Below are positions 15,016 through 19,074 of a stretch of 64,000 bases of DNA, in pieces; the stretch's first letter is position 1; each line of letters opens with the position of its first letter. The notes beneath the pieces were generated by a model, which saw only the letters and a program-made list of their open reading frames with translations, made no database searches and had not been told where the DNA came from. The translations under genes and the position numbers were made by a program. Source of the DNA: Chryseobacterium scophthalmum (GTDB lineage Bacteria; Bacteroidota; Bacteroidia; Flavobacteriales; Weeksellaceae). The DNA is taken from contig NZ_FSRQ01000002.1 in the NCBI RefSeq assembly GCF_900143185.1, positions 62,001-126,000 of the forward strand, in the 5' to 3' direction.

Positions 15016-16296
15016 TTAAATTCCGAAAGCAGATTTAATTTCTTCTACTTTGTCTAATTTCTCCCATGTGAAGAACTCTAAACCTGTAAGAGTCAACTCA
15101 TTTTTATGTCCTTTATTAAAGGTTTTATCAGCAACGAAATGCTCTCTTCCCATGTGTCCGTAAGAAGCGGTTTCTTGGTAGATAGGATTTCTTAATTTTA
15201 AATTTTGCTCGATAGCGTAAGGTCTCAAATCGAAAATTGTAGATACTTTTTTAGCAATTTCTCCATCATTCAAACCTACTTTTGAAGTTCCGTATGTATT
15301 GATGTACAATCCGCAAGGTTCAGCAACACCAATTGCATAAGAAACCTGCACCAAAACTTCGTCAGCAACACCTGCAGCAACTAAGTTTTTAGCAATGTGT
15401 CTTGTAGCATAAGCAGCACTTCTGTCTACTTTTGAAGGATCTTTCCCAGAGAAAGCACCACCTCCGTGAGCTCCTTTTCCACCGTAAGTATCAACGATAA
15501 TCTTTCTTCCTGTAAGACCTGTATCTCCGTGAGGACCTCCGATTACGAATTTCCCTGTAGGATTGATGTGATATTTGATCTGATCATTAAATAAAGCTTT
15601 GATTTCTTCAGTCTGCTGAGCAACAACTCTAGGAATCAAAATTGTTTTAATATCTTCTCTGATTTTGTTTAACATTTCTTCTTCAGCACCGAAGTCGTCA
15701 TGTTGAGTAGAAACCACGATAGAATCAATTCTTACCGGTTTGTGGTCATCAGAATATTCAATTGTTACCTGAGATTTTGCATCTGGACGAAGATATTTGA
15801 TTTCAGAATCTTCTCTTCTGATTGCAGAAAGTTCTTTAAGAATAGTATGCGCCAAATCTAAAGCTAAAGGCATATAGTTTGCCGTTTCATTGGTAGCATA
15901 TCCAAACATCATTCCCTGATCTCCTGCTCCTTGAGCGTTTGCTTTTGTTTCGAAAGTTTCGTCAGCAACTACTCTGTCAACACCTTGGTTGATATCCGGT
16001 GACTGTTCGTGAATCGCAGAAATTACTCCACAAGAATCACCATTAAACATATATTCACCTTTTGTATAACCAATTCCGTTGATTACTTCTCTTGCAATAG
16101 TTTGAACATCTAAATAAGCATCAGATTTTACTTCTCCTGCCAAAACAACCTGTCCTGTTGTAACCAAAGTTTCACAAGCTACTTTTGAAGTTTTGTCGTA
16201 TGCTAAAAAGTTATCGATAAGTGCATCAGAAATCTGATCGGCAATTTTATCCGGATGTCCTTCTGAAACAGATTCAGATGTAAATAAATAAGACAT
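15016..16296 (-). CDS. metK: S-adenosylmethionine synthetase
   Basis: The 426-residue enzyme makes S-adenosylmethionine from methionine and ATP. Signature blocks are all present: [15 protein letters not shown] (about 9-23), the methionine-loop region [12 protein letters not shown], and the glycine-rich [20 protein letters not shown], which is the phosphate-binding P-loop-like signature. It is slightly longer than the E. coli protein (384), as is common in Bacteroidota. The gene has a 135-base leader with a SAM-II aptamer, so the product of the enzyme represses its own synthesis. It is followed by a strong terminator. Confidence 0.98.
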
Positions 16297-16355
16297 ATTA
16301 TTCTTTGTATTTTTTAAGATTAAAAAAAGTGAAGAAAAAATGAATAATTGCCCGG

Positions 16356-16388
16356 AAATGCTAAAAAAGAATTACTGTTTTAGCATTT
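16356..16388 (-). promoter_or_regulatory. Alternative hairpin in the metK leader
   Basis: In the RNA, AAATGCTAAAA (16388-16378) pairs perfectly over 11 bases with TTTTAGCATTT (16366-16356) around an 11-base loop. The 5' arm is the 3' strand of the SAM-II pseudoknot, so hairpin and ligand-bound aptamer cannot coexist. There is no T run after it, so it is not a plain terminator. Confidence 0.7.
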
Positions 16389-16427
16389 TTTTAGAGAGGT
16401 TGCAATCAGGTCAAATTTTTCCTCGTT
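16375..16427 (-). ncRNA. SAM-II riboswitch upstream of metK
   Basis: The RNA has a P1 stem GAGG (16424-16421) with CCTC, an intervening loop containing TTTGACCTGATTGCAA, then TCTAAAAAAATGCTAAAACAG. It matches the SAM-II class: a small H-type pseudoknot with the conserved TTGCA before P1 closes and GCTAAAA near the 3' end. The second helix can form: CTG and GC of the loop pair with CAG and GC of the 3' segment, with U-A in between. The predicted transcription start (about 16434) is just before the aptamer. SAM-II senses S-adenosylmethionine and normally lowers expression when it is bound. Confidence 0.87.
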
Positions 16428-16439
16428 AATAAACGTCTG

Positions 16440-16470
16440 CAAAGTTAAGTACTATTTTTTAATACTCAAA
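16440..16470 (-). promoter_or_regulatory. metK promoter
   Basis: On the minus strand TTTG (16470-16467), a 19-base spacer and TAACTTTG (16447-16440) match the Bacteroidota consensus exactly. The predicted start lies just ahead of the SAM-II aptamer. Confidence 0.8.
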
Positions 16471-17586: not shown

Positions 17587-19074
17587 ATGGATAATAAAAA
17601 ATTAACAACAAGCAGCGGAGCACCTTATTATGAACACCAGGATTCTCAAACAGTCGGAGCGCGTGGTCCGGTATTGTTACAAGATTTTATCTTACAGGAA
17701 AACCTTGCTCATTTTGTGAGAGAAAGAATTCCTGAAAGAATTGTTCATGCGAAAGGAAGCGGGGCTTACGGAAAATTTACAGTCACTCATGACATCTCAA
17801 AATATACAAAGGCTAAATTATTTTCTCAGGTAGGAAATTCATGTAAAATGTTTGCCCGTTTCTCTACCGTGGGTGGCGAAAAAGGAAGTGCAGATACGGC
17901 AAGAGACCCGAGAGGATTTGCTTTAAAATTTTACACAGAAGACGGAAATTGGGACTTAGTAGGAAATAATACGCCTGTTTTCTTTATTAAAGACGCTAAA
18001 AAATTTCCGGATTTTATACATACTCAAAAAAGAGTTCCAAAAACCAACCTGAAAAGCGCAACCATGATGTGGGACTTCTGGAGTTTAAATCCCGAATCGC
18101 TGCACCAGGTTCTTATTCTAATGTCTGATAGAGGTACACCTTATGGTTTTAGACACATGCACGGTTTTGGCTCTCATACTTTTTCGATGATTAACAGTGA
18201 AAATGAAAGAGTTTGGGTGAAGTTCCATTTTAAAACAAAACAGGGAATTAAAAACTTTACCGACGACGAGGCAACAAAAATGGCAGGAGAAAATCCTGAT
18301 TTTGCACAGGAAGACCTTTGTAATGCAATCGAAAACGGTGATTTCCCAAAATGGACAATGTACATGCAGGTAATGACCGAAGAACAGGCAAAAGAATTCA
18401 GATGGAATCCTTTCGACATCACTAAAGTTTGGTTTCAGGGAGATTTTCCTTTAATTGAAATTGGTGAAATGGAACTGAATGAAATTCCAGCAAATTATTT
18501 CGCTCATGTAGAACAGTCTACTTTCTCACCAAGCAATTTGATTAACGGAATCAGTTTTTCTCCAGACAAAATGCTTCAGGGAAGATTATTTTCTTACCCG
18601 GATGCACATCGATACAGAGTAGGTGTAAATTCTCATCAGCTTGAAGTAAACAGATGTCCGTTTGCAGTCAACAATTACCAAAGAGACGGCTTTATGGCAG
18701 ATTCAAGTGAATATCAGGATAAGCCAAACTATCATCCAAATAGTTTTGATGACATCCAACCAGATTCGTCTTATAAAAATTTCGAATATGAGCTAGACAG
18801 CAATCATGTTGCTAATTTCAACAGAAATGAAAATGACGACGATCACTACACTCAACCAGGACTTTTATATACAAAAGCAATGAATCAGGAGGACAGAGAA
18901 CACCTGGTAAACAACATCATAGGAAGCATGAAAGGAATTGACGGACCAAAAAAAGACGAGATTATCAACCGTCAAATATGTCATTTTTTCAGGGCAAATG
19001 TTGAGCTTGGCATGAAAGTGGCATCCAGTCTAAGTGTCAATATAGACGCCAACATGATGAATCATTTTAAGTAA
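17587..19074 (+). CDS. katA: Monofunctional haem catalase
   Basis: The 495-residue clade-3-sized catalase breaks hydrogen peroxide into water and oxygen. The catalytic histidine is H54 in RIVHAKGSGAYGKF; the distal Asn and following FFIKDAKKFPDFIH segment is present; the proximal haem ligand is Tyr337 in RLFSYPDAHRYRVG. Length is typical of small-subunit catalases, with no C-terminal flavodoxin-like domain. There is no signal peptide, so it is cytoplasmic. It is divergent from the OxyR-like gene and ends in a strong terminator, so it is monocistronic and probably peroxide-induced. Confidence 0.97.
   Translation: MDNKKLTTSSGAPYYEHQDSQTVGARGPVLLQDFILQENLAHFVRERIPERIVHAKGSGAYGKFTVTHDISKYTKAKLFSQVGNSCKMFARFSTVGGEKGSADTARDPRGFALKFYTEDGNWDLVGNNTPVFFIKDAKKFPDFIHTQKRVPKTNLKSATMMWDFWSLNPESLHQVLILMSDRGTPYGFRHMHGFGSHTFSMINSENERVWVKFHFKTKQGIKNFTDDEATKMAGENPDFAQEDLCNAIENGDFPKWTMYMQVMTEEQAKEFRWNPFDITKVWFQGDFPLIEIGEMELNEIPANYFAHVEQSTFSPSNLINGISFSPDKMLQGRLFSYPDAHRYRVGVNSHQLEVNRCPFAVNNYQRDGFMADSSEYQDKPNYHPNSFDDIQPDSSYKNFEYELDSNHVANFNRNENDDDHYTQPGLLYTKAMNQEDREHLVNNIIGSMKGIDGPKKDEIINRQICHFFRANVELGMKVASSLSVNIDANMMNHFK

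Follow-up and report, generated by a model that had tools for sequence, protein, structure and literature searches.

SAM-II riboswitches are already known from Bacteroidetes (PMC2864571, PMC2258182). The closest described relative of the element considered here is the RNA modelled as RF01726, which was found in Bacteroidetes and in marine sequences and for which the cited portions of the description give no expression platform, details being left to an additional file (Weinberg et al. 2010, PMC2864571). The SAM-II platforms set out in the parts of the literature drawn on here hide a Shine-Dalgarno sequence or form a terminator (PMC9373788, PMC9481103, PMC2258182). For example, in Sinorhizobium meliloti, where SAM-II aptamers are associated with metA and metZ, downstream mRNA drops at high SAM and metA translation is controlled at a distance, the metA aptamer containing or adjoining a Shine-Dalgarno sequence and metZ having a predicted terminator, as given in the relevant sections of PMC9373788. 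The SAM-II aptamer from the Sargasso Sea metagenome forms a SAM-dependent pseudoknot that itself hides the Shine-Dalgarno sequence and is probably translational in its action (PMC9373788). SAM-V, reported from marine alphaproteobacteria and Bacteroidetes, likewise forms a SAM-II-like pseudoknot and acts on translation, but its stem lengths differ and it forms a class of its own, and no anti-aptamer strand is described for it in the portions of text cited (PMC6061858, PMC2704228).

In the Bacteroidetes model Flavobacterium johnsoniae, which does without Shine-Dalgarno sequences, initiation needs adenines at -3, -6, -12, and -13 as well as low structure near the start (PMC6847099). Because Bacteroidota have no Shine-Dalgarno sequences, a textbook translational riboswitch finds nothing to mask in them. 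No SAM-II expression platform in Bacteroidota was found in the open-access PMC literature, which is not proof of its being unpublished, and a Bacteroides transcriptome paper names TPP riboswitches, with no SAM-II seen in the available part of its text (PMC7366714).

The window analyzed here, a stretch of 64,000 nucleotides from Chryseobacterium scophthalmum, encodes metK (methionine adenosyltransferase) on its minus strand at 15016-16296 (TIGR01034, 506.9 bits against a cut-off of 309.4), and on that strand the order is promoter, leader, metK. Relatives by MetK sequence include a MAG named Chryseobacterium and Planobacterium oryzisoli at 81% identity, in a listing from which the nearest genomes may be missing. 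The SAM-II-like element that a sequence-only reading had placed ahead of metK is confirmed by a cmscan search of the whole window, in which RF01726 (SAM-II, long loop) matched 16370-16430 on the minus strand with 69.8 bits (E 2e-11) against a gathering score of 44, over model positions 1-60 of 60. The same covariance model, the same phylum, a full-length match, and a location ahead of metK and downstream of a promoter identify the RNA above metK as a genuine SAM-II "long loop" aptamer that presumably binds SAM; it scores as SAM-II rather than SAM-V. On the minus strand the aptamer comprises GAGG (16424-16421), CCTC (16399-16396), and, at the 3' end of its core, GCTAAAACAG (16384-16375), the GCTAAAA of which also forms part of the 5' arm of a hairpin discussed below. 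For the P2 pseudoknot, a predicted pairing of loop and 3' strand, the conserved letters match, and the structure line of the scan displays no pseudoknot pairs. Its 5' half (16396-16424), consisting of P1 and the loop and including GATTGC, is the portion that duplex and swap tests indicate to be contacted by an anti-aptamer strand. Unlike the S. meliloti elements, the window's leader has no Shine-Dalgarno sequence, the distance from the aptamer end to the metK start has a median of 73 nt (150 leaders), and a separate strand is proposed as relay; the geometry of the Sargasso Sea RNA is unavailable here.

The Bacteroidota-type promoter read from the sequence, TTTG-N19-TAACTTTG (16440-16470, minus strand; TTTG at 16470-16467 and TAACTTTG at 16447-16440), is borne out by box counts in relatives. 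In 148/150 leaders a TAnnTTTG box lies within the 60 nt preceding the aptamer, against 3.7% expected from mononucleotide-shuffled upstream regions; the median spacing between the end of the box and P1 is 15 nt, and the complete TTTG-N17-21-TAnnTTTG arrangement is present in 94/150. Since the flavobacterial promoter box sits at -12 to -5 in the cited portion of PMC9723704, transcription would be expected to start near 16435, against the earlier estimate of about 16434. At the other end of the leader, the start region of metK (16294-16308, minus strand) is A-rich, and A occurs at -3, -6, -12, and -13 in 117, 115, 106, and 111 of the 150 leaders, respectively. Just upstream of metK lies an OxyR-like LysR regulator (17479-16529, minus strand; 206 bits, under the equivalog cut-off of 329), from which a catalase-like gene (17587-19074, plus strand; 469 bits, under the cut-off of the HPII model) diverges. 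Elsewhere in the window, on opposite strands and with about 230 nt between them, are a TPP riboswitch (RF00059, 50786-50686, minus strand, 64.5 bits) and a Flavo-1 RNA (RF01705, 51016-51107, plus strand, 61.7 bits).

SAM-II matches were found in 185/197 genomes of the family. Samples of the order and of the whole phylum gave matches in 172/246 genomes (169 of them above the cut-off) and in 45/296 genomes (41 above it), respectively, these being overlapping draws to which stricter filters were applied. The window's own genome has one match, and a second SAM-II element in it was sought and not found. In one genus of the same family (g32), a match was absent from 9/9 searched genomes, while 29/33 genera of that search have one. 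Nine order-level relatives (L089, L090, L092-L097, and L099) carry insertions of about 30-50 nt inside the aptamer, between the 3' strand of P1 and GCTAAA, and these insertions could form extra hairpins.

The leader between aptamer and start is unalignable across genera, and pairing was therefore tested directly. From 159 fetched leader loci and the window, 8 loci that were not parsed by the pattern were left out and duplicates were removed, giving 150 distinct leaders from 45 genera, one of them identical to that of the window. Sampling was not random: L001-L099 are the best-scoring matches and L100-L159 were hand-picked to favor new genera, with genus labels taken from the search tables. Duplexes were compared with 200 dinucleotide shuffles per leader. 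In the swap test, pairing with a leader's own partner was compared with pairing with the leaders of other genera after row- and column-centering, with at most 3 leaders per genus (71/150 leaders); accessibility was modelled for these 71 and the window's leader, 72 in all, with 25 shuffles each. A second set with named species comprised 80 loci, with the aptamer parsed in 46, of which 24 were outside the Flavobacteriales list; it may overlap in species with the unnamed set.

At minimum energy, the leader of the window is predicted to fold into a long rod in which GAGGAAAAA pairs with TTTTTCTTC and TGATTGC pairs with GCAATTA, with an 11-bp hairpin at its tip; the whole leader folds with a z of -2.51, and 2/200 shuffles fold as well. 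Because this rod occupies the P1 and loop of SAM-II, it cannot coexist with the aptamer. The strand responsible, GGGCAATTATTCATTTTTTCTTC (16331-16353, minus strand), was delimited from the minimum-energy fold and the comparative tests. Duplexes between the aptamer 5' half and the leader are stronger than in shuffles, with a genus-mean z of -2.22, negative values in 44/45 genera, and p<0.05 in 91/150 leaders. Swapping gave a Z of -8.9 for the aptamer 5' half with its own leader (45 genera) and -6.5 for the 23 genera of the family. The swap test serves as a covariation test because the aptamers differ in their loops, the 150 leaders having 50 different 5' halves between them. In the named set, anti-aptamer pairing had a mean z of -1.77, with 40/46 negative and a swap Z of -6.5. 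The remaining 13 pairings in each swap series were mostly null. Three other nominal passes occurred in the 45-genus series: cds2 x C with a Z of -4.1, apt x up2 with -3.2, and J x C with -2.8. When the test was confined to the family, only cds2 x C among them stayed below p 0.05 (Z -1.8). Coding and upstream swap controls had |Z| of 1.2 or less in the whole named set, and two coding windows in its Flavobacteriales subset had the opposite sign (Z +1.8 and +1.9). The predicted anti-aptamer pairing thus exists and covaries genus by genus, well supported by comparison, and comparative and folding tests indicate that it and the aptamer are mutually exclusive. The competing fold of the sequence-only reading therefore holds in that an aptamer-excluding pairing is broadly supported, but the broadly shared partners are the strand at 16353-16331 and the aptamer 5' half.

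The strand would matter for translation if, once released, it paired near the metK start. Pairing of the leader stretch with positions -18 to +3 exceeded shuffles slightly (genus-mean z -0.66, 32/45 genera negative, p 0.002; 23/150 leaders individually at p<0.05), and the swap test gave a Z of -6.6 over all genera and -5.2 in the family. In sliding windows, start pairing peaked at -12 to +5 (Z -6.8 in the family; Z -3.9, p 0.0007 in other families); the family signal was gone from +6 onward, where windows of leader with coding sequence were not significant. Windows toward the promoter were null, and a single nominal window, +36 to +53 (Z -2.7), occurred in other families. Examples of start complements come from genus g24 (TTCCTTTT and AAAAGGAA), from genus g41 (TTTCTTTTGT and ACAAAAGAAA), and from leaders of the genus to which the window belongs (ATTATTCTT and AAGAATAAT). 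In a thermodynamic model of the window, the unpaired fraction over -15 to +3 falls from 0.60 in the free leader to 0.33 when the aptamer is withdrawn, against 0.49 to 0.42 in 25 shuffles (p 0.08). The drop went beyond that of shuffles in 28/45 genera (Wilcoxon p 0.0003) and in 17/23 of the family, and was not above shuffles in 17/45 genera (72 leaders modelled). In the named set, start pairing against shuffles had a mean z of -0.16 with 21/46 negative, and the start swap test was weak (Z -2.1, p 0.018). When the 51 leaders of the window's genus, which have 12 start types, were swapped among themselves, the own residual was +0.66 (p 0.99), that is, no preference for a leader's own start. Start pairing is thus supported at the level of the clade and not within the window's own genus, and the translational control anticipated from the sequence, which swaps support across genera, was weak in the named set and failed within that genus. 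The freed strand likely acts through the start region.

In the predicted fold of the window with the aptamer withdrawn (modelled to +60), the only leader pairing near the start is that of TTCTT (16336-16332) with AAGAA (16305-16301), and GGCAATTATTC (16352-16342) and the AUG pair with the early coding region. The partner of GGCAATTATTC is 16252-16240, metK codons 15-19, a pairing with weak comparative support. Pairing of leader with coding sequence was considered as an OFF state and set aside: the cds2 signal of the 45 genera falls to the value given above in the family and is absent in the named set.

Taken together, we infer, with a probability of roughly 0.6, that a SAM-II riboswitch represses translation of metK by way of a strand with two alternative partners, SAM binding, folding order, and repression all belonging to the estimate. 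Transcription would start about 11 nt before the P1 stem, and the aptamer, being transcribed first, could fold immediately, the anti-aptamer strand emerging about 20-45 nt later. When SAM is scarce, the pyrimidine-rich strand at 16353-16331 would invade the aptamer 5' half and form the long rod with the GCTAAAA/TTTTAGC hairpin at its tip, the A-rich start would stay open, and MetK would be made. When SAM is plentiful, the aptamer would fold around it first and the rod would be blocked, and the freed U-rich leader would then pair with the start codon and the bases immediately before it and lower initiation.

A narrower possibility is that competition with the aptamer comes from the GCTAAAA/TTTTAGC hairpin by itself, its loop contacting the start region. 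In the window this hairpin, recognized from sequence, minimum-energy fold, and conservation of its core, is a perfect inverted repeat of 11 bp, AAATGCTAAAA and TTTTAGCATTT (16356-16388, minus strand; arms 16388-16378 and 16366-16356), that shares GCTAAAA with the aptamer, and a run of 11 was reached by 0/60 shuffles of the window's leader stretch. Its loop and 3' arm contain ATTCTTT (16372-16366), a candidate anti-start element that is the exact complement of AAAGAAT (16306-16300); in the genus, 29/51 leaders have such complements of at least 7, where mononucleotide shuffles predict 6.7%. A TTTAG core near the aptamer is present in 76/150 leaders against 10% expected in shuffles (45% when weighted by genus, 21/45 genera). 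Where the aptamer has GCTAAAG rather than GCTAAAA, the base preceding TTTAG tends to be C rather than T (A-T 53, A-C 7, G-C 12, G-T 3, and G-A 1 leaders), so that one pair covaries from A-T to G-C (Fisher test over the first four combinations, genus-level p 0.024); in the named set the same pair (A-T 1, G-C 7, G-T 5) is too one-sided for a covariation test. The segment of J and GCTAAAACAG also pairs with the leader beyond shuffles (genus-mean z -0.83, 34/45 genera negative), and in the named set the TGCTAAA strand likewise exceeds shuffles, with a mean z of -0.65. Against the hairpin as a switch in its own right stands its rarity among the 51 distinct leaders of the genus, where 11 bp are reached in 2/51 and at least 7 bp in 8/51, TTTAG is missing from the first 30 nt after the aptamer in 33/51, and the genus-mean z is 0.01. 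Moreover, the loop complement occurs in only 3/59 leaders of the rest of the family, and the swap of TGCTAAAACAG with the leader gave a Z of -1.3, a test of little power as the strand is nearly invariant. We regard this explanation as improbable, and the 11-bp stem as a conserved core was ruled out by the count of 2/51. What the sequence-only reading had proposed here is therefore retained in part: the hairpin is perfect, appears in the minimum-energy fold, and belongs to a supported aptamer-excluding fold, of which, however, it forms just the tip; the relatives show one covarying pair, involving the base that precedes TTTAG; and the loop complement, exact as it is, is specific to the genus.

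Other explanations keep the anti-aptamer switch but move its output to the level of RNA. The freed pyrimidine-rich leader might serve Rho as a loading site, or be a place of cleavage, with SAM thereby causing premature termination instead of masking the start, and the failure of start pairing within the window's genus and its weakness in the named set, together with a leader stretch that is U/C-rich by eye, would fit such a role. In the family, covariation is greatest around the start codon and does not continue into the coding sequence that follows, a pattern which use of Rho would not require, and we consider this route unlikely. Alternatively, the long rod could be a terminator-like stem ahead of the T run at 16328-16322, with termination in the free state and relief by SAM; in the window the rod does stop two bases before the seven T. 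A SAM synthase switched on by its own product would run against the usual logic, the outer rod is A-T rich, and a run of at least 6 T occurs anywhere between aptamer and ATG in only 80/150 leaders. A consensus scan for intrinsic terminators, though covering loops of 3-8 only, found none after the aptamer, an absence that speaks against termination at the rod and is compatible with Rho or cleavage. Termination at the rod is accordingly rated highly improbable, and repression of metK translation through the start region is the reading preferred here.

It is conceivable, at somewhat less than even odds, that the metK SAM-II riboswitches of Bacteroidota share one platform, in which a fast-evolving leader strand is complementary to the A-rich start region as well as to the aptamer 5' half, the sequence of the strand being re-invented while both pairings are kept. 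As this leader shows, an expression platform that defies alignment between genera is nevertheless recognizable by testing whether pairing to the aptamer and to the start is stronger within a leader than across genera. For a large group of bacteria, the metK leader offers a concrete and testable answer and indicates which bases to change. If true, the shared platform would be a riboswitch that regulates translation where there is no Shine-Dalgarno sequence to hide.
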